Shown here one piece after another: positions 114 to 53,379 of a stretch of DNA of 64,000 bases. The DNA lies in contig CM034104.1 in assembly GCA_019914945.1 (NCBI GenBank), positions 3,660,501-3,724,500 of the forward strand, read 5' to 3'. The notes below the pieces were generated by a model, which made no database searches, had not been told where the DNA came from, and saw only the letters and a program-made list of their open reading frames with translations. Both the position numbers and the translations under genes were made by a program. Position 1 is the stretch's first letter. Every line of letters begins with the position of its first letter. The DNA is from Typha latifolia. Its lineage: Eukaryota > Streptophyta > Magnoliopsida > Poales > Typhaceae.

Positions 114-3100
114 TCAATAGTAAGTGACATTGATCAAATCTAAACAATGTTGAAATTTGATTTTGGTCACTACTTTTGTCAACATATCAGCCGGATTATC
201 AGCGGTTTTAATCTTGCAAAGTGAAATATCCTTTTCTTCTAAAATTTCTCTCACAAAATGGAAAGGGACATCAATGTGCTTTGTCCTTGTGTGGTGAACT
301 TGATTCTTAGCCAAACAAATTGCACTTTGGCTATCACAATGTACCTCCACCTTCTCTTAGTATACACTCAAGTCATCCGTCAGACCAAGCAACCGAATAG
401 CCTCCTTTATAGTCTCTATCACTGCTATATACTCTGCCTGTGTGGTAGATAAAGCAACAGTCGACTATAAGGTAGATCTCTAACTCACCGACCCTCTAGC
501 AAGTGTGAAAACATATCCCGTAGTGGATCTACGCTTATCCAAATCACATGCATAGTCCAAATCTACATATCCAGTAAGATGTAGACTAAGTCTATCATCT
601 TTTACAAATTTTAGTCCGACACCCACAGTACCATGGATATATCTCAGAATCCATTTCGCAGCCTGCTAATGCCCTTTTCTTGGAGCATGCTTATATCGAC
701 TAACAATGCTAGTGACTTGTGAAATGTCTGGCCTAGTGCACACCATTGTATACATTAGGCTTCCAACTGCACTTAAATATGGTACCTTAGACATAGACTC
801 TCTCTCGGCATCTGAAGTGGGTGACATAGTTGCACTGAGCCTAAAATGAGGTGCCAACGATGTACTCACTGGTTTTGTTTTGCTATCAACTCCAAACCAC
901 TACAATACCTTCTTCAAATACTGCTCATGAGTTAAGCATACTATCCCCAATTTCCTATCTCTTCTGATCTCCATACCAAGTATCTTCCTTGCTTCTCCTA
1001 GATCCTTCATTTCAAACTCTTTATTCAATTGGAGCTTCAATTTATCAATCTCCACCTTGCTCTTAGATGCTATCAACATATCATCAACATATAATAGCAA
1101 ATAGATAAATGATCCATCTTGAAGCTTTCTAAAGTACACGCAATGGTTATAGTGGCTTCGCGTGTATTTATGCCTCCGTATAAACTAGTCAAACCGTTTA
1201 TACCACTGCCTAGGAGACTGTTTCAAGCCATACAAGGATTGTTTTCAATTTGCAAACCAAGTCTTCTTTTCCACTAATTTTTAACCCTTACGGCTGTGTC
1301 ATATAGATGTTCTTCTCCAAATCACCATGCAAGAAGGCAGTCTTCACATCCATCTGGGCCAGCTCAAGATCAAACTGAGCTACCAAGGCTAGCAAAATCC
1401 GAATAGAGGAGTGTTTCACCACTGGAGAAAACACTTCATTATAGTCGATCCCCTCCTTTTGAGCATACCCTTTTGCCACCAATCTAGTCTTGAATCTAAC
1501 CCCGCCATTTGATTGAGGATCATCCTTCTTGGCATATATTCATTTGCACCCAATAGCCTTCTTCCCCTTAGGGAGCTCCACCAAATCCTAAGTTTTATTT
1601 TTCTCAAATGCTTTCATTTCATCATTCATTACCCTTTTCCAATTTGTTGTTTCAGTGTTCTTCATAGCTTCTTTGAATGAAGTGGGAAAGTCTTCATCAA
1701 TCACCGGAAGAGCATATGCCAACATATCAGAATAGCGTGCCGGCCTTCTGATTTCTCTCCTTGGCCTTCTAACTACTATGGAGTCTTGATCATCAGTTTC
1801 TAGCTCCACACTGTCATCCTCTTACAAATTAGAATCTTCCTCTTCATTTGCCCCTTCTGAAGGTGTATTTTGTGGTGGACTTGAATGCTCCTCAAACTCC
1901 ACCTGCTGTGGAACATCTTCAGCACTGTCATCAACCGGGCTATCTAATGCTTGTCTTTGCTTCAGCATGGATGATTCATCAAATGTATTATCCCTCTGAT
2001 GATCAATTTCCTCAATTCTGGCCTCCAAACCTGAAATCCCTCCAATCCAGTGCTAAAGCCCAAGTAGATGTCCTTCTTGGCTCTAGGATCCAACTTGCTT
2101 TCCTTGACATGATAGTATGCAGGGCAACCAAAAATATGTAAGGAATCATAATCTAAAACGGGTTTGCCAGACCATACCTCCAATGGGCTCTTCCCATTGT
2201 TTATAGATAAAGATAGCCGGTTGATAAGATGACATGCATAGTTGATTGCCTCAGCCCAAAACTCCTTACCCAATCTAGCATTGGACAACATACACCGAAC
2301 CTTCTCCAATAAAGTTCGGTTTAGACGTTATGCCATGCCATTTTGCTGAGATGTCTCTCTAATAGTGAAGTGTCTTTCAATCCCTTCTTCTTTGCATAAC
2401 CTCATAAACGGATCTGAAGTGTACTCTCCACTATTATCTGATCTGAACTTCTTTATCTTCTTGCTAGTCTGATTCTCAATCATCTTCTTCCAATTCTGAA
2501 AAATTTTAAGCACTTGGTTCTTATGGTGCATGGTGTACACCTAAGACCTTCTAGAATAGTCATCTACAAAGGTGACGAATCAGTGCTTTCCTCCCAATGA
2601 GGCCTTTTGGGTAGGCCCCCAAACATCTATGTGAATGTAATCCAAGATCCGCTTGGTCCGGTGTACAACAGTGGCAAATTTAACTCTAGTTTGTTTGCCC
2701 AAAACACAGTGTTTGCAAAATTCTAGTTTGAGGCTCTTCACACCCTTTAGCAAACCTTGACTTGATAGGCTTTGCAAAGCTTTCTGTCCTAGGTGCCCCA
2801 ACCTCATGTGCTATAGTCTGGAAGAGTCTACCTCACTAATAGTGTTACTTGAGGCGGCCACTATTCTTTCCAAATCTGTAGAGCGTTGTAAGAAGTACAG
2901 ATTGCTTCTTCTTATGCCCTTCATCACCACCAATGCTCCCAAGGTCACCTTCAATGCTCCACCTTTTAAAGTAACAGTGAAACCCTTTGATTCCAAAACC
3001 CCAAGGGAGATGAGGTTCTTCTTCAAATCCGGTATGTACCGGACTTCAGTTAGCTTTTTGATAGACCCATCTTGGTGCTTCAGGCGAATAGTGCCAATGC

Positions 3101-4079
3101 TTTCAGCTCTACAAGGGCTATCATAGCCCATAAACACAACTCCACCGGAAATTTTCTCAAAAGTGGAGAACCAACTCCGGTTTGGACACATATGGTATGT
3201 GAAATCGGAGTCTAAGATCCACTCATCCGTGCTACATGCAAGAGCCAACCCTACCAAGGCGCTTTTCGAGTCCTCATCATCTGAATGTGCCATATTTGCC
3301 TTTTAGGGTTTCTTGTCCTTGTTTTTCAATACAGGGCAATCCTTATTCCAATGCCCTTTATTGTGGCAATAGGAACATTGGTCTTTGGCAATTGACTTCC
3401 TATCTGAGGATTTGCCTCTTTTCCCAAATTTTTTATTTTCTGATATACCCCTTACCATTAATGCATCAGATGATGACTCATGAGTAGCTTGCTTGTCCAA
3501 TTTCCGATACTCATTGTTAATCAATGCATTTGCAACATCATCATAATGAATTGAATCCTTTCCATATAGTAGGATAGTAGTAAGGTGGTCATAAGTATCC
3601 GGTAAGGAATTCAACAATACCAATGCCTTGTCCTCATTCGAAATTTCAACATCCAAGTTTTGCTAGTCCGTAAGTAACTTATTGAAGGCATTCAAATGCT
3701 CCGCCATCGGTGTTCCCATCTTGTATTGAAATCTGAAAAACTTCTTCTTTAGGTAAAGCCGGTTATCAATGTTCTTGGTCATGAATTTGTCCTCCAGTTT
3801 CTTCCACAAGCATTTTACCGAATTCTCCTTAATCACAAAGTACTTTTGGTTCTTTGCTAGACAAAACCGAATAGTGCTACATGCTTGCCTATTCAATTTC
3901 TTCCATTCCTTCTTGGATACATCTTTGGGTTTCTCCTCCAAGATAATGTCCAATTCTTATTGGAACAAAACATCCATAACTTCACATTGCCACATTCCAA
4001 AGTTGCTGGTGCCATCAAATTTCTCAACTTCAAAATTTGCATTTGAGATAAGTTTGCCCGATTTGGATGATTCCCCCAT
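114..4079 (-). pseudogene. Broken copia gag-pol polyprotein
   Basis: The start is the ATG at 4079, just inside the primer-binding site. Gag (about 4079-3300) has an RNA-binding zinc knuckle of the form CxxCxxxGHxxxxC near 3335-3376. The protease reads WILDSD near 3212 where the family has D-S-G, so an active-site glycine is replaced. An integrase core lies around 2810-2100, including the pre-integrase region with HCVLGK and a QQNG motif. The reverse transcriptase keeps its YVDD catalytic motif near 1080-1091. RNase H (HCDSQSAICLAKN) lies near 260-350. In-frame stops occur in gag, between gag and protease, in integrase and several times in reverse transcriptase. All gag-to-integrase pieces share one frame and everything below about 2030 is in another, so there is one net frameshift. 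It is not functional. Confidence 0.93.
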
Positions 4080-4140: not shown

Positions 4141-4156
4141 ATTTCTCTAATACCAA
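4141..4156 (-). other. Primer-binding site (initiator tRNA-Met type)
   Basis: The minus strand reads TTGGTATTAGAGAAAT. This resembles the TGGTATCAGAGC site complementary to initiator tRNA-Met that copia elements use. It sits between the LTR end and the gag ATG, and one C-to-T type change separates it from the usual form. Confidence 0.85.
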
Positions 4157-4550
4157 TTTGTTGTGCAAAAGTCCCAAATGGGTGAAGGAAGCGGAAGCAA
4201 GACCTTCACCCTCAAATAGCCCAAATGGGAATAGTGAAAGAAAACCAATGCAATGCTTGGAAAAACTCCAAAGAGAGGTTAATGGTGATAGAAAAAGCCC
4301 TAAGCAAATTCTAATCACAGATTAACATCCTAATGCAAGCAATCACCAACAATGGAAATAATGGAGACAACAGAGACAATAAAGAGAGATAAGATTTACG
4401 TGGTTCGGCGATGTGCCTACGTTCACGAGAGGAAGAATTTTCTTTACTATGCAAATCCCTCACTTACAAAGAGTTTAACAACTCAAATCACTCTTCTTAC
4501 AATGGTAGCTCAACTCTCATAAATGTTCTTCCAACTGCTAACTCCTTAGA

Positions 4551-4558
4551 ATTTATAG
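4551..4558 (-). promoter_or_regulatory. TATA box of the copia LTR
   Basis: The minus strand reads CTATAAAT, directly downstream of the palindrome array and upstream of the R/U5 motif. The position fits the LTR promoter. Confidence 0.65.
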
Positions 4559-4589
4559 TCAGGTTCAGATTTAGGGATTTTCTGTGTCG

Positions 4590-4872
4590 CGTTTGAACGC
4601 CCTCGGGGGCGCGTTCGAACGCGCACAATATCAATACAACAGAAACAAGAGGGCGTTCGAACGTAGGAGGGGGCCGTTCGAACGCATGCAGAAATAGTTG
4701 CTCTCGGGTTGGCCCGCATTCGAACGCGGCTGGGGCCGTTTGAACGCCTGCAGAAAGTCTGCTCTCTGGTTGGCTCGCGTTCGAACGCGGCTGGGACCGT
4801 TCGAATGCTTGCATCATAGATTGCTCTCTGTTTAGAGCCCGCGTTCGAACGCCCCTAGGGCTTGTTCGAACG
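4590..4872 (-). promoter_or_regulatory. Array of ten CGTTCGAACG palindromes in copia U3
   Basis: Ten copies or near copies of the 10-bp palindrome CGTTCGAACG start at 4590, 4612, 4654, 4675, 4717, 4737, 4778, 4798, 4842 and 4863. Start-to-start steps alternate between about 21 bp and about 42 bp (22, 42, 21, 42, 20, 41, 20, 44, 21), which makes about five tandem units of 62-63 bp with two palindromes each. The inner spacer of each pair is G-rich (for example GGCTGGGGC). The longer spacer of the last three units carries GCTCTC. The array ends 32 bp upstream of the LTR TATA box. Steps of two or four helical turns would place the sites on one face of the DNA, which suggests a dimeric binding factor. 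That is inference. Confidence 0.85.
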
Positions 4873-7800
4873 TGCGACATAGAAATGATGATACATGCTG
4901 AAAATGTATTAAAACTAAATTTAAGCTAATTTTTAACGATTTATAATACAGCTTAGGGGATTATAATCTAGCAAGCTTTCAATCAATTTAAAAATATAAC
5001 TCTTTAAACCAGCTTAAAATACAAAGCCTACAAATAAGTCTTAAAAACAAGACCAACTATGCGTGTAGCACTAGATTTGGAGACCGCTCATCGACAGCTC
5101 TTCTCTTTCTCCTCATCGACGCAAACTCCCCCTCCTCCCTCCCATCTAATTTTATCTCACCATGTTTCCTCTTTTATTATCTATTTTATAGTAACATTAT
5201 TTAAGAGCATATTTTTCCTTTATTATTTGTTTTTCGATATGTATTTTTTTATTTAAGAACTCTACTCACTTTTGTAATATCTATGAACTTATTATGGCGT
5301 ATGAGCTCTACTATTATTTTTGTACTATTGATATATGTGGGTCTCATGAGAGGGGTGCCTGACAGGTTTGGGGTATTTCATATTGTTATGTAGTAACTTG
5401 GTAATTTCAATTCTAGTTACCATGATTCCTGTTGTATATTACATCACAGGGGTGGACCTTTTTCTCAGCGGTGGGAACCCCACATATATTCAATGAAGTG
5501 TATATCTACTGATATCCTTGTTATATATTATGGTGTTTGCTACCTGCTTTATTTATTGCTCATAAAGTGGCTCCAACCAAACCTTGAATACCTTCCAGAA
5601 TCTCATCCTGCTGCAGAGTAATATATAGTGAGCAAAGAACATTACTTTGTTTGGAAGAAGCAGGTTACACTAGAAATAATCCACTTGTTACTGGGCTACA
5701 TTCCTTCATGTATATGTTCATGTACTATATATATTTCTTGAAGTAAATGGCTTCCTGTGAATTGTAAAAGAGCTCATCTTAGGTTATTGGTGCAGTAGTT
5801 TGCACATATATGTTACATGATGTCTTAAAATCTAATCTAGGAAAAAAAAGGAGTAGCTGTAGGTGTTTGGAATGTGGTTTAGTGAAGCATGTAATATAGT
5901 TCTAATTAAAGGATAAATATATAAGTTGATGGTTATTTTTTCTCTCCAGTAGTCAGTTGCATACCACCTTCAGTGCATATATATATATATGGGCACTTTT
6001 TTTTTGAGATAATTTAAATCTTATTAGGTGTTAATTTAATAAGAATATTTTGATATTAATATTTTTCAAAAAGTTAAAGAGCATTTTATTAGTGTGTATA
6101 TATATATATGAGATACATCCTCAAAAAGTTAAAAAGCATTTTCTATTTTTGAGCTTATCAAACTCAGCTTGAGCGACCCAGCTTTAATTCAGACTCGGAT
6201 CAAAATTAATTTTAAATTTTGTTTTATTTTTTTCCATTAGAGCTCGAGCTGCTCATCTATTTTGATAGCCTTACTCATATTATATAAGTAATTTTGGATT
6301 CCAATAACGACTACATCAATTTTACTGAAATACTATTAAATTCCACTTCTTTGGAAAAAAAAAATCTAGAGAGACACCTCCCCCACCTCCCCCCGGAGAA
6401 CAACACATACCCATCAATGCATCAAGAGTCGTTAAATATTAATTATTTGTCTCCATGGCCTCCCACATTAAAGCCTCGAATCCATAACTTTTTATTTTTA
6501 TTTTTCTGCTCTCCAACGCATTTCATTATCATATAAAAAAGACCATATTCATGCACAGTATATTTGTAACACAACTCCATTACTACTATTACATCGACTA
6601 CCTATCCTCAAAATCCGTGTTATGATTTATTTAGCTCTATCATCAAAATACGAAAATGTTCTTGAAGAAGTTTGAACAGCTTACAGCCTCTCATGAGTAT
6701 TTTAGTCGTTTGAAAATTATAGACAGACGAACACTTGGAAAGAAAAGGTATACGTATTAATTAAATCACAGAATGATTTCAAAAAGATGTCATTTGAACT
6801 CCTCCCATAAATTTAATAAATCTTTTGGATAAGAAATTAGAGAGTGCATGGCATGGTGCATTGAAAATTTCATCGTAACGCTACTGATAGTAGTATCGTA
6901 ACATATCTTGTTGTACGTTCTTTTCAGAAGCTTCTCAACCGTCAGAAAACTGAGAGACATTGAGCTTTAATAGGTTAAGGATATGAACAAGAGAGAGATT
7001 AATCATTAACAAAGAAGAAGAAAATATGAAAAGAGCGTGCATGGTGTTTTCAATCGGACTAGTACTACAAATAATAGCATAATAATATAAATCGTACAAA
7101 TAGCAACACATCATGATGGTTATGTGTGCTTTTCAAAGCATTTAAAAAAAGAGAAAAAAAACAAGCATTCAATTATTTTTAACCCAAACTAATTAAAGGT
7201 TTTTTTTCTTTTTCCAATAGAATTCATTTCTGCGGATTGGAATGTGCATAGGAACTTCAATAGATAAAAGGGTTATAAATCATTTTAGGACTAATAATAT
7301 GTAGATCCATCCCTAAATTAACTCGCGTATATTTTTTAAACTTTTTTTTTGGTGACACGTAGACCTCATGAAGTATTGAAAATGTTTTAGGCATCTTCTC
7401 GATTAGGTTTTGTTACTTTTTTAATCTACAAACCGTCAACGTGCAAATTATATGACATATTTATTCTTATATTTTAAAAGAATTAAAAATAACTAATTGC
7501 TCTGATAATACTATTTAGTATATACTTTCTATAGTCTAAGAATGCTCGAGGTGGTCGATCATGTATCCTCGATTTAGGCTTATTTTTTTTGGGAAAGTTG
7601 AAATAATGTAACCTGTACTCATAATCTCGCCGCCAGACATGCTCTTCACTCTAGTAAATGTAAAGCTTGGTGTAGCCTACCGTTATGATTTTGTGATAAT
7701 GCCACGAACTATTTGTAATTTAACATCATTTTTTGGACTATGATTTCATAGGAAGTTAATTGTATTCTAGGCATTTTAAAAGTCAAGCTTAGGACTCTAA

Positions 7801-38236: not shown

Positions 38237-41200
38237 ATGGGGTTGGTTATCGTCGTCTCTTCTCTGCCTTCGCCTCCCACTCGCATCTCCCTCGCCTCTT
38301 CCTCTCTCCGGAGAGCTCCGCCGCCGAGGCTTGTGCGTCTCGGCAGATGGCTGAGGCCGAGCTCCTCATTTGGGGGAGCCCTCGTTTGCAAGTAATTCCC
38401 ATCCCTTTAATCTTCCTTTTCTGTCATTAGTGTTAAAGATTGTTCCTAATTTTTTTTAAGTTTTATTCTGGTCATAAGTTGGACTTTATGTCGGGATTTG
38501 CCTTTTCATTTGTATATGATGAAGGTATGATTAGGTTTGAGCTATTTATTAGAATGCGAAAGACTATAATGCACATTTGCTTTTGTCAAATTATTTGTCA
38601 ACGATGGAAAAGAAGTGCTATTAGTTGTCCAGATTCATGGATCGGAGAGATCGCCTCGACAGTCCAGTGGTCGAATCTGGACCAAATCCGGCGAGGTTCA
38701 AGAGAGATTTAGTAGGGAGACGTTGGAAACGTGTCGGCTACTCTCACACCTGGTGGAGTCTCCAATGGTTCGCTGTTTGGAGAAGAGATACACCTCCCTG
38801 TGGAGAGTGGAGATGGCAATGGAGGAGGGGAACGTAGCAGGCCATTGTACAAGGAGGTTTTAATCTGTGGTTCCCCAGATATTCCTAATTTCTCGTCTTC
38901 GTGGGTAAACCCTAGGGTTTCTTCTTCTGCGGGGAGAATGCGGGGAGGGATCGGTGCTTGTGTGTGTACTTTTGCTGTGGAGAGAGTGGTCACTAAGCAG
39001 CAAACTGCCGTTATATGCTACAAGTGCAGAAGATTCGGGCATTGAGCTATATCGTGCAAGATAGGGAAGGAAGGGGAGAAGATGCCTCTCTTGGCTGGAT
39101 TGGTATGGATGATGCTACGAGCCTTAGAAGAAATGTGGCAAAATGAGTTAAGATTAAATAAGTGCATGATGGTGACCGTGAAAAGAGGTAGGATCTCAAC
39201 CCAAAACCTAGAGTGTCAATGAGCAACTAATGGGCAGGGGACAATGAATGGTGGGTGCGTGCTGTCACAAAAAACAAGTTTTCGGTAATTTAGCGTATGG
39301 AGGTGATAGGGAGGGGGAGATAGATTTGTGGATTGCAATGTTGGTGTTTACCCCTTGGAGAAAGGGTTTTAGAATGATCTGTATGAAAGAGCCTATGTGG
39401 ATTCGTCTTATAGGTATTCTTCTTCAGTGTTGGAATAATATACATTTTATTAAAATTGTTGAGTTTTTTGGATCTTTGGTGATGGTGGATGACAAAACTA
39501 CTCGAAAGGTGAATTTGCAATCAACAAGATTGGTGAAAGATTTGGTGGGTATACTTGTTAAGATAACATTAATAGTGGAAGGGATAATTTTTGAGGCAGC
39601 TTGTGAAGTGAAGGCAAGGAAGTGAAGTAGGAAGGAGTTCAAGCTTTTACTTGGATAAGAAAATGACCGACAATGGGGTCTGCTTAAAGTAGTATATAAT
39701 GATCGCCTTCTTAACCCCATGATTACTGCGAGTTCAAATCTAAACACGAAATTGGATTCTAACTCACGTAGAGAAAGTTAGGGTTACCACAAATCTCTAA
39801 AGTTAAGAGGTAACTCGAAATTAAACGGTTAAATGGTCGAGTGCTTTTGGGATTGAAATAGATTCGGGATGGATCGTGAAAAGGAAAGGCCGGAGAGGCG
39901 TGGTGGTGATCGACCTAGGGTATGGTATGGTGGTAGAGATGATAATGGTAGAAGTCGAGGTAGTCGGTAGAAAAGGAATAGAAAAGAAATACGATCATTC
40001 CTTAGAGTCAAAGGGGCGTGGCCAGATGAAGAGGAAGGCAGCAATAAAGATCCTAAGTGGTGGCTAGGATTTCAAAGCTTGAAAATAGTCGAACAAGGAG
40101 GAAGGAGACGATCTTGTAAATTAACTTTAATATTCCAAGATCACTATTCGGGTTCACACCACATTTATTTATAGATGGCTCCCCGACTCAAATAGACGTG
40201 GTAATAGGATAGAACAGGCTTAAATCTTATTGCCTAACATAAGCAAAAACACTTATTAAAACACATAAACTAGAGTTCCTCGTCGTCGGGCGTTCAAACA
40301 ACCTTTAGGGTGTTTGATCGCCAATTTATTCTTTGGCTCTCGAGAAAATGCGTTTGAACAGCCTTGGGGGCATTCAGATGTCTATTTATTCTTTTGCTCT
40401 CAGGAATTTGCATTCGAACGCCTGTAGGGCCGTTTGAACGCCCAATTTCGAGATGGGTTATTTCAACTGTTGAAACCTTTATTTCCTTTCTAATCAATTC
40501 CTATTTAACCATTACAGTCTACCACACTTTTCCACCTTATCCTCAAGGTGTGAAGTCAGGAAAGCGATCCATCATGTCGGTCTTGGACTCTCAAGTAGCC
40601 TGGTCGGAGGATGTCATGACCTGAAATAGGAATCATGACCAGCCATGCACCTCAATATGCTTGAGATACACGAAGTATTACTAATATTTTATAAGTGTAT
40701 AATGGCAAGAATAAAATAAATGAAGAGGATTTGTTTTATTTAATTTAAACTAATTGTAATGAAAATAAAACAATGTCATTATTACTGTGTCTCTAAACGA
40801 AATTAAATTAACAATTAATCTAAAACATAAGACCAAAAGAACGGAAAGGTAAATAGGAAAGTTCTAAGTGGAGGTAGGGCCCTGATGCATCTCGCTCAGT
40901 CGACATACTGACCATTACCTGAAATAATAGAAGAGAAAAAACGAAATACATGAGCCAACAATTATAGCTCAGTGAGTATAATCTACTCGAAAACCAAATA
41001 ATTCTAAAATTTTATAGTATTAAATAAAACCCAAGTTCAACAATATAAATAATAATTTTCAACAGGCATGCTCTTAAAATAATGACAATGATAACAATAG
41101 AGAGTCATAACTTGTAACCTTGCTCAGTTTTAACATATTAACATTTTTTCAATGTTTATAATGTCATTTGTCTTAATGGGTCTATACCTGTAGATTCATA

Positions 41201-50891: not shown

Positions 50892-51204
50892 ATATTTACT
50901 AGGGTTGTTAAAATATCTCGCTAGCTTATGAGCTTGTCTGAGGTAGACTAAGCTCATTGCCTCGTTCAAGTTCAACTAGAACTAGCTCGATATATACTTT
51001 TAAAATAATATTAATGTTTTGTAGCATAGTTAGTTATATGCCCACATTTTATAATGTAAAAAAATAATAATTAGTTGGGCCATATTTAGTCCTCGATATG
51101 ACTCGGTTCATATTGGCTCCACTCATGACATTGAATTCATTGGAATGAGCCTATTTATCTAGTTGATTTTTGTTTGAAGAAATAGAAGAATTTTTGCCGG
51201 GAGG

Positions 51205-51380
51205 TGTTCAAACACATTCCCTGGATTCGAACGGGTTATATGAATGCATGTACGCGTTCACAAAAATAAAGAACACAAATTGTGCGTTCGAACGGTATCG
51301 GGCCGTTCGAACGCCTCCACACGTTCGCAATGACAGAATATGTAATTCCGCGTTCGAACGCGATCAAGTGCTTTTGAACG
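51205..51380 (+). promoter_or_regulatory. Third cluster of CGTTCGAACG-type palindromes
   Basis: Sites start at 51205, 51224, 51285, 51304, 51351 and 51371, as three pairs 19-20 bp apart. Half sites (CGTTC followed by a broken right half) lie at 51255 and 51322. The inner spacer of the middle pair contains TATCGGGC. The cluster ends 59 bp upstream of CTATAAAT at 51439. Orientation is opposite to the other two clusters. Confidence 0.75.
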
Positions 51381-51438
51381 CACCGTGACGAAAATTATTG
51401 GTTTGTTAGGGTTTTTAACTTATCCCTAGGGTGAGCCT

Positions 51439-51446
51439 CTATAAAT
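51439..51446 (+). promoter_or_regulatory. TATA box downstream of the third palindrome cluster
   Basis: CTATAAAT within CTCTATAAATATATAG, placed as in the other two LTRs relative to the palindromes. Confidence 0.55.
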
Positions 51447-52332
51447 ATATAGAGGAAATCCTAATTGGAGTGAATCTAATAATTAAAAATGGCATTGTGC
51501 CTTTATCTTCTTCTCTTCTTGCTCTAGACATTGGCGCTCTCTCACCACGTTCTTTCTATCGCCTCTTCTACAACACCTTCTCCATCTTCACTCCAAAGAA
51601 TTAATTTAACATATATCTAGCCATTGAAGGGCTATTAAGCTAGGGCTTATCTGACCTTTGGCCATTTTTCGGCCGATATCTCAAGATCTAGTTATCCAAA
51701 CCCTACAATCTTAGATTCGTTGGAAATATCTTTTCAATACCGACAACAAATCCAAAGTTAGGAAGATCCAACGGCTAGATCATCCGCATCTTCCTTCGAA
51801 AGTCACTCCTCAATCTAGTTCAAAACTATTTCAGATCGGATCAAGCCGGTTCGTAACAACCTCACATTTAAAAATATTAAAAAATAATCATCTATATCTA
51901 TACTCACCTTTTGAACAATATAAGCATTATAGTTATGAAATATATATTAGAAATATTTTTTGAAAAATCGAGCTCACTGCTTGCTCGCACAGTTCGAGCA
52001 TTCCCAATTTCGAGCTCAGCTTGTTTACAACCCCCTAATATTCACTAATTAAAAAATTACGTCATTCTCTCCAATCCGTAAGGGTATTTTAGTCTTTTCA
52101 ATTACATATATATTTTAGATTGGTGTACAATGTACGTGTTAAAAAAGAGTGAACCGTTACCCAGAGCTGAGTTGAGCTGAGCTGGCAATCTGTAATAAAG
52201 ATTTATAGTTTTTCACTAATTGATGATAACTGTCCGATATTATCTCCTTACTTTTGGATAAAGTCTCCATCCATCCAACAGTCCGAAGATCCTTAGAATC
52301 TCTTGCCAGGTAGTTTCTACAAATCCTTGGTC

Positions 52333-52340
52333 TATAAAAG
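52333..52340 (+). promoter_or_regulatory. TATA box of the NAC gene
   Basis: TATAAAAG, 117 bp upstream of the ATG at 52450, implying a leader of roughly 85 nt. Confidence 0.65.
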
Positions 52341-52449
52341 GACCATACTGCCGATCAAACGCGCATTTGCATTCTTCCCACTTCGATCGTCTTCTCCCAA
52401 GTTTGTTTCCAAGAACAGGAACGTTAACGAGGAGAAGGAAGAGCCATCG

Positions 52450-53379
52450 ATGGAGGAGGACCTTGGTTTCTACTTCATTCCCACCGACCAGGAGTTGATC
52501 GTCGACTACCTCTTGCAGCGGGTAGCGGGCCTCCCGCTTCCCTCTGACGTCATCTCCGATGCCAGTGTCTTCTCCACGCCGCCGTGGGAGCTCCTCGCCG
52601 GCCGCGTGGAGGCGTACTTCTTCTCAGAGCAGAAACCGTTGGGGTCATCGCGGTCGAGTCGGAAGATGAAGAGTGGAACGTGGAAGAAGGAATCCACTAG
52701 CAAGGAGGAGACGGCCTTCCTCGATAGCGGCGCGGTCGTACGCTGGAAGAAGAGTCTCTTCTCGTTCCACCCCACTGGATGCGACTGCAGCAGTGGGTTC
52801 GTGATGCGCGAGTACCAGCTCTGCGGACCACCCAGCATTAGTGATGAGAGGAGGAGGATGAAGAAGAGGATCAATATATCTCAATCTCAATCTCAATCTC
52901 GATGGGTTGTGTGTAAGATTAACGTGAGCCGAAAAGCCCTGAAGAAGAGCAGAGAAGGTCAGTGTGCTCGACCGAGAGGATCTTCCAAAGATGCTGCATT
53001 AATGTTGGAGACCCAAGAAGAAGTGTTGCCATCTGCCGCTGAGCCGATTCATGATCAAGAAGCATCTTCTTCTACATCCTTGGACGACATGTTATTAATT
53101 CAACCGCTGCCACAGCAAGAAATAGACCAAATCCTCAACATGCTGGATTCAGATCCCTATCCTGAGAGCCTGCAGCCACCAACTGCTGGCGACGCTGCCA
53201 TCAGTGTTGACGATTATGGCGACTACGAGGCACCGTTAGTCTTCTGCCAGCCGGCGGCAGTGCTAGACCAACTAGTCATCGGACCACCCATCGACGGTGC
53301 TGTTCCTGCGGTGCAATCAGTTGGCTATGATCACGATAAGACGACGACATCAGCATCAGTACATGATTATTTGACATGA
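52450..53379 (+). CDS. Divergent NAC-domain transcription factor, single exon
   Basis: A plant-specific DNA-binding factor acting in the nucleus. The protein is 309 aa from the first ATG (52450); the open frame upstream of it has no ATG. The NAC domain lies at the N-terminus: subdomain A reads GFYFIPTDQELIVDYLLQRV (6-25), B has PPWELL, C has TWKKES, and D includes VRWKKSLFSFHP, GFVMREYQL and SRWVVCKI. Typical proteins have GFRFHPTDEELV and WKATG, so several consensus positions differ (Y for R, Q for E, KES for ATG). The tail is acidic and Ser/Pro/Asp-rich (DDMLLIQPLPQQEIDQ), as in activation regions. Most NAC genes have two introns inside the domain and this one has none. A TATA box lies upstream. 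Specific function not assigned. Confidence 0.9.
   Translation: MEEDLGFYFIPTDQELIVDYLLQRVAGLPLPSDVISDASVFSTPPWELLAGRVEAYFFSEQKPLGSSRSSRKMKSGTWKKESTSKEETAFLDSGAVVRWKKSLFSFHPTGCDCSSGFVMREYQLCGPPSISDERRRMKKRINISQSQSQSRWVVCKINVSRKALKKSREGQCARPRGSSKDAALMLETQEEVLPSAAEPIHDQEASSSTSLDDMLLIQPLPQQEIDQILNMLDSDPYPESLQPPTAGDAAISVDDYGDYEAPLVFCQPAAVLDQLVIGPPIDGAVPAVQSVGYDHDKTTTSASVHDYLT

Follow-up and report, generated by a model that had tools for sequence, protein, structure and literature searches.

Paired palindromic boxes in long terminal repeats of Ty3/gypsy and Ty1/copia elements of Typha latifolia

Can long terminal repeats (LTRs) of unrelated retrotransposon superfamilies carry the same promoter module? 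The question is raised by a 64,000-nucleotide stretch of the Typha latifolia genome (assembly GCA_019914945.1, contig CM034104.1, positions 3,660,501 to 3,724,500; hereafter the window, in whose coordinates features are given). A first-pass annotation had noted there six regularly spaced, related sites in a putative chromovirus LTR near 40 kb, and the same pieces in a copia element at 4.9 kb. We found that a 12-bp palindromic box, GCGTTCGAACGC, is shared across the two superfamilies, and that box pairs 19–22 bp apart occur, upstream of TATA motifs, in no fewer than four LTR families, of which two are gypsy, one is copia and one is a Sirevirus-like copia family.

The six-box array and its chromovirus-type carrier

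The LTR near 40 kb belongs to a family denoted F1, and its features in the window are the following:

39695..40516, minus strand: degenerate 3' LTR of F1, chromovirus-type, 822 bp, with edges common to other copies and ends read from the sequence
40290..40441, minus strand: six-box array of F1
40162..40174, minus strand: TATA-like motif CTATAAATAAATG, read from the sequence, 116 bp downstream of the last box
40517..40610, minus strand: pol tail, read from the sequence, with the putative chromodomain end (SDQAT.E), RFPDF and an overlapping LEDKV in a different frame; also found, in part, before the LTR in other copies

The six sites start at 40290, 40310, 40350, 40370, 40410 and 40430, at exact steps of 20/40/20/40/20 bp, and are identical to GCGTTCGAACGC in 9, 9, 9, 7, 11 and 10 of 12 letters, respectively. 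Read as a single register (0/20/60/80/120/140 from 40290), they agree with the box in 55 of 72 letters, against a mean of 16.5 (standard deviation 3.6) for all registers in the window, where the top score outside its three arrays is 33; the spacing given by the annotation is thereby confirmed. The 60-bp period that it proposed is exact at this locus, but amounts to about 60–63 bp in other copies. When a strict box was defined as one with at most three mismatches, of which no more than one in the central six letters, the LTR contained four, whereas 300 dinucleotide shuffles averaged 0.12 and never exceeded 2. In the 214-Mb genome, exact GCGTTCGAACGC occurs 14,944 times and its reversed control not once, and the exact pair pattern gave 450 forward and 481 reverse matches, with 0 and 0 for its controls; because perfect pairs are counted on both strands, the number of places is below 931. 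A search of viral contigs for the pair pattern returned no match. Chance origin of the boxes is ruled out by the reversed-box control, the shuffles and the register scores, and the six-site observation is real and well outside chance. The observed/expected CpG ratio of the array (1.06) is not above that of the rest of its LTR (0.98), in a window averaging 0.55; the other two arrays reach 1.41 and 1.92.

The LTR itself proved larger than proposed: the interval 40080–40465 lies within it but is only a part of the full span, which runs on the minus strand from TGTAATGG (40516) to GATCATTATA (39695). The pol tail does adjoin the LTR, as claimed, at about 40517–40610, but a different, abundant repeat begins at 40611, next to the shortened tail, and accounts for 37 of the 40 scored matches there (761 candidates). 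RFPDF and LEDKV were both seen in the tail, whereas the putative chromodomain is represented by its last residues only and LEDKV lies in a different frame from FPDF. The purine tract did not hold up, since inspection by eye found no canonical polypurine tract beside the LTR, merely a purine-rich stretch.

A genome search with the F1 LTR gave 46 matching pieces (best 40 of 96 candidates scored), and twenty copies were taken as 10-kb stretches; L-numbers denote stretches fetched from the genome. For most copies the homology is an LTR-sized block with sharp edges, the exceptions being L010/L025 and L020/L026, which share flanks too, and L018, which contains two copies; L011 and L024 are interrupted, and L027 and L028 stop early. 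Each of the 21 copies, the window's included, has 3 to 7 strict boxes, although the counts of L012, L014, L015, L018 and L023 include stray boxes outside the cluster. In 4 of 20 copies shown (the window's own, L010, L013 and L025), the LTR directly adjoins the final ~40 bp of the pol tail, although L010 and L025, with their shared flanks, may be a single duplicated locus; a longer tail precedes the LTR in L052. By eye, 2 of 16 aligned copies, L023 and, in decayed form, L016, have directly after the LTR a primer-binding-site (PBS)-like TGGTATCAGAGC, which we take to be complementary to initiator tRNA-Met; the remaining copies appear solo or truncated. In L010 and L025, a second, inverted partial match to the LTR (query 294–380) lies about 1 kb off.

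The assignment to the Ty3/gypsy chromovirus type, proposed by the annotation, is supported by one copy on contig 14, where a gypsy-type integrase C-terminus (L053; SH3_Tf2-1, 3.3e-21) stands beside the pol tail and LTR of L052. This 3' LTR is 72% identical to the window LTR over 849 columns, and its boxes are legible by eye; a second LTR match in the same orientation, located by genome search 5.1 kb away, covers query 7–323, which takes in most of the array (query 211–362). The residues SDQATWE...FPxF, presumably the chromodomain end of pol, were read by eye in the window and L052, being too short for a profile. The annotation had asked whether intact chromovirus relatives lack the array; this is not the case, because the contig-14 copy combines integrase, pol tail, a 3' LTR with boxes and an LTR match 5.1 kb off. 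An unrelated solo LTR that happens to lie beside a pol tail is likewise ruled out, as the tail precedes the LTR in the window, L010, L013, L025 and L052.

Box pairs in a copia element and in further families

The copia partner, family F2, occupies the following positions:

4159..4938, minus strand: Ty1/copia 5' LTR; the 3' LTR (L036), just beyond the window, is 83.7% identical
4589..4873, minus strand: array of 10 boxes, pairs 20–22 bp apart (300 shuffles: mean 0.19, maximum 2)
4549–4560, minus strand: TATA, read from the sequence
4145–4156, minus strand: PBS-like site, read from the sequence
903..3956, minus strand: internal region, in pieces (Retrotran_gag_2, Pol_BBD, gag_pre-integrase, SH3_retrovirus, RVT_2)

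In the profile search, RVT_2 was matched at 2.6e-26 and 2.9e-16, a Retrotran_gag_2 gag was present, and the integrase core match fell below the curated cut-off. The RVT_2 matches bear out the copia identity already proposed for this element, which we assign as Ty1/copia at superfamily level. Its two LTRs contain 10 and 11 boxes, and its genome matches (best 40 of 243 candidates) include seven pairs whose members share a strand and are separated by about 5 kb; the pair of this element is one of the seven. The likeness claimed between the copia and gypsy arrays also stood: both have the same box, pair spacing, piece order, strand and spacer words, and both lie on the minus strand with TATA downstream.

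A second Ty3/gypsy family, F3, provides the third array of the window:

51095..51858, plus strand: F3 LTR, start approximate (45 matching pieces, best 40 of 933 candidates)
51204..51381, plus strand: F3 array of 6 boxes, pairs 19–20 bp apart, with a TATA region from 51433

In the F3 copy of L041 both LTRs are present (83.7% identity); SH3_Tf2-1 was matched there at 8.2e-20, and gag weakly, short of its curated cut-off. The pol-tail frame of F1 and F3 (window 40517–40610, L052, L041) ends in TP-stop, with a LEDKV-like stretch in a different frame (by eye), and these endings look like common descent from one shortened tail.

Family F4, represented by L042, is copia (RVT_2 8.8e-75, Retrotran_gag_2 5.2e-22), and its two LTRs agree at 95.8% over the 939 bp retrieved; we term it Sirevirus-like by layout only. 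Four extra boxes follow its pol, about 0.55 kb ahead of an open reading frame (ORF) in the env position (L042 1302–2243, minus strand), with a TATA-like stretch behind them (by eye). This ORF gave no match to an env profile in the profile search, matching instead PF20167 (putative plant transposon protein, 2.5e-34). An ORF resembling it stands upstream of the LTR in L010 (by eye).

Eight sites were sampled from the first listed contig-1 matches, five exact-pair and three exact-box, and all eight lie in multi-box arrays: one in an F3 LTR, three in F4 LTRs and four in two further groups, F5 and F6, which were defined by eye and stand outside the superfamily assignment. One F5 copy was traced to a PBS-like site, and its ORF is without a Pfam match. 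The F5 and F6 arrays are similar to those of F3, and the three are taken together below as the F3 group.

Two neighbours of these LTRs may be mentioned. Beside the F1 LTR, window 38716–39625 (plus strand) shows, by eye, a stretch of zinc-knuckle type and has a partial DUF4283 match at 5.3e-8; we take this to be probably a LINE ORF1 remnant. Downstream of the F3 LTR (51095) and on the same strand, a NAC (NAM) ORF lies at 52297–53379 (PF02365, 5.4e-21); the LTR could be its promoter, because the TATA region points to the ORF.

Array grammar, a proposed host factor and possible routes by which the module came to be shared

Box intervals of 19–22 bp number 91 in 41 arrays and occur in all six groups (F1 28, F2 18, F3 17, F4 15, F5 6, F6 7). 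The gaps between pairs are mostly 40–41 bp in F1, 41–45 in F2, 46–48 and 61 in F3, 53–54, 30 and 34 in F4, and 49 in F5. The distance from the last box to TATA is 115–118 bp in 13 of 21 F1 copies and 131–137 in three; in the other five no TATA was found after the last box, and each has a stray box further on. It is 31 bp in all four F2 copies, 58–88 in four of seven F3, 74 in four of five F4 and 63 in both F5 copies, and no TATA was found after the last box in either F6 copy. The outer spacers also carry a word, GAGARC: of 110 spacers, 46 contain it when read along the TATA strand and none when read along the opposite one (averages over shuffles, 0.1 to 0.6 per family). By family, F1 to F6, it occurs in 24/46, 6/17, 6/14, 7/25, 2/4 and 1/4 outer spacers, and in 15/20, 3/4, 4/7, 2/5, 2/2 and 1/2 copies. 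Its distance to the next box is mostly 14–15 nt in F1, 13–14 in F2, 13 in F4 and 9 in F3 and F5, with a single case of 5 nt in F6. Under within-group column permutation, the CAGAGA statistic was reached in 1 of 400 sets and the minimum-fraction statistic in 4 of 400.

Sites for a dimeric activator would be expected to look like this: palindromes in pairs, two turns apart, lying upstream of TATA and, in F4, again upstream of the env-position ORF. Judging from the arrangement of the letters, we consider it likely that the array forms the upstream portion of the LTR promoter that activates it, and is a module for a host factor, used by both superfamilies. The unit would be a pair of GCGTTCGAACGC palindromes 19–22 bp (about two helical turns) apart, repeated up to five times, often with the polar CAGAGA/GAGARC word in the outer spacer and placed mostly 31–118 bp upstream of TATA. 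LTR transcription would be driven by a host protein that binds DNA as a dimer and most likely occupies neighbouring palindromes along the same face of the helix. Several LTR families of both superfamilies may have come to use the module, the likeliest route being recurrent selection for sites of one host factor together with local duplication of units, to which short-range exchange between some families would add; binding, activation and route are all inferred. Two gypsy and two copia families of one genome carry the same box, of which about 15,000 exact copies exist in total; this suggests a host regulator common to unrelated elements. We put forward, as a tentative possibility, a bolder version: paired GCGTTCGAACGC boxes and the polar CAGAGA word would form a compound promoter module that has moved between copia and gypsy elements while the remainder of their LTRs did not, and a single host regulator would control elements of both superfamilies, whether old or fairly young.

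Several observations weigh against these proposals. The pair rule is broken by intervals of 12–16 bp in F2, F3 and F5, by single F4 boxes 53–54 bp apart and by runs of 20–21 bp in L045 and L046. The GAGARC word was counted only after it had caught the eye, the tandem units of one family are not independent cases, and in 31 of 400 nulls at least as many words were shared by all groups as in the data. When spacers were compared with boxes masked, taking the best match against 200 column-permuted nulls, the opposite strand was also in excess (nulls as high: F1–F2 inner 1/200; F3 group–F4 outer 2/200, inner 4/200), so that much of the spacer similarity is not polar. On the same strand, F1–F2 is marginal for outer spacers (11/200), and the within-copia pair F2–F4 is similar too (outer 4/200, inner 59/200). 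Box-masked local alignment of whole arrays from 13 copies found F3–F4, F4–F5 and F4–F6 but did not single out F1–F2; in 20 of its 140 comparisons no more than 6 of 300 shuffles scored as high, most of these being among F3, F5, F6 and F4, with one F1–F6. Finally, no factor is known to us whose recognition site spans all 12 bp of the box.

The foremost rival to recurrent selection is capture. On this view a single family, perhaps the abundant Sirevirus-like one, gave rise to the module; recombination or template switching between elements expressed together then carried copies of it into the LTRs of other families, and the spacers diverged afterwards. In favour of it, same-strand spacers are most similar across superfamilies: no null reached F1–F2 inner or F3 group–F4 outer spacers (0/200 each; F3 group–F4 inner 9/200). 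The annotation had called for comparing a tree of the units with that of the reverse transcriptases; run roughly, as spacer similarity, this check places gypsy F1 best with copia F2 and the F3 group best with copia F4. The strongest spacer pairs thus cross the copia/gypsy border, and the effects are modest. Furthermore, F3 and F4 share a stretch of 48 bp at 83% (E 1.4e-7) and F1 and F2 one of 33 bp at 88% (E 5e-7), boxes included in both, and F1 and F2 have a common period of about 60–63, order and strand. Against capture, periods and GAGARC-to-box distances differ between families. When one or two LTRs from each of F1 to F4 were compared by same-strand blastn, nothing significant was found outside the arrays (outside matches 12–20 bp, E 0.4–0.5), which rules out whole-LTR exchange between the superfamilies and limits any capture to units. 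On balance, we regard capture as unlikely, though not strongly so.

Pure convergence on the 12-bp site alone, with the spacer words due to chance or composition, would agree with most spacer letters being unshared and with the pairs without excess (same-strand nulls as high: F1–F4 outer 154/200, inner 64/200; F2–F3 group outer 176/200, inner 117/200; for F1–F3 group they were outer 17/200, inner 36/200), and the opposite-strand excess suggests some part for composition. Nevertheless, the strand polarity of GAGARC and the F3 group–F4 outer spacers, whose similarity no null attained, speak against it, and we find it rather improbable.

The identity of the reader raises a further alternative, namely that the core is a CHR-type site (TTYRAA) for a CXC/LIN54-like protein, in plants TSO1/TCX, with expression in dividing cells. 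Sites of the form GCGTTNNAACGC have a YR centre in 17,868 of 18,177 cases (reversed controls 6 and 21), as such a reader would allow; CpG deamination, however, produces these variants as well. Changes affect the central CpG in 2,924/17,868 sites, the left-flank CpG in 4,753/19,697 and the right-flank CpG in 4,836/19,780, so that the central one is the best kept of the three, with the caveat that mutation rate may depend on context and that master copies may differ; this is not predicted for a reader that tolerates TTYRAA. The box is moreover 12 bp long, not 6. A CXC (LIN54/TSO1-type) reader is a lead only, and a distinctly improbable one. A heat-shock element was also considered and set aside: in the box TTC directly adjoins GAA (by eye), whereas heat-shock elements usually have a two-base gap between them. 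That the palindrome is non-regulatory, a preferred insertion target or satellite seed that drifted into LTRs, is very improbable: the arrays are indeed tandem, and LTR elements reportedly target palindromes (PMC6911290), but the boxes lie inside LTRs at family-specific distances from TATA, and all eight sampled sites fall in multi-box arrays, four of them in F3 or F4 LTRs.

Comparison with known systems

The CHR element, bound by LIN54/MuvB, has the consensus TTYRAA (PMC4974476). The box centre fits this core, although CpG decay would yield the same fit; unlike the 6-bp core described there, the present site is a 12-bp palindrome in a paired array, which lies outside the consensus.

The closest structural likeness is to the RM boxes of Sireviruses (Bousios et al. 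2010, PMC2829016). According to that paper, these are palindromic, lie in LTRs and 5' of env, upstream of TATA, form CpG islands, mostly have a CGG-CCG core, and are termed Sirevirus-specific and absent from classic copia elements; the RM box of Tnd-1, ACAATCGATTGT, is an exception to that core. The boxes described here are likewise palindromic and in high copy upstream of TATA, and the four F4 boxes ahead of the env-position ORF, which matches PF20167 and not an env profile, may be compared with the RM boxes 5' of env. The present boxes match RM boxes in position and layout, but fail two defining features given there: the core is that of GCGTTCGAACGC and not CGG-CCG, which Tnd-1 lacks as well, and the carriers include two gypsy families (F1 and F3) and another copia family (F2). 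Palindromic LTR boxes have so far been described as a Sirevirus trait with no known factor, and among the open-licence papers listed in literature searches none reported the present box in LTRs.

Our results suggest that unrelated families of jumping genes repeatedly came to depend on the same host protein, and offer a case in which LTR promoters and the proteins expressed from them can be compared in their evolution; the 60-bp unit could serve as bait, a direct handle for finding the regulator. The nearest evolutionary parallel, by analogy, is the gain of heat-responsive elements by ONSEN and other COPIA LTRs of Brassicaceae (PMC5059998). There too, sites for a host factor were gained in different families, in ONSEN by duplication of a proto-site. 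Those are heat-shock factor sites in COPIA elements, whereas here another site occurs in large paired arrays and in both superfamilies.
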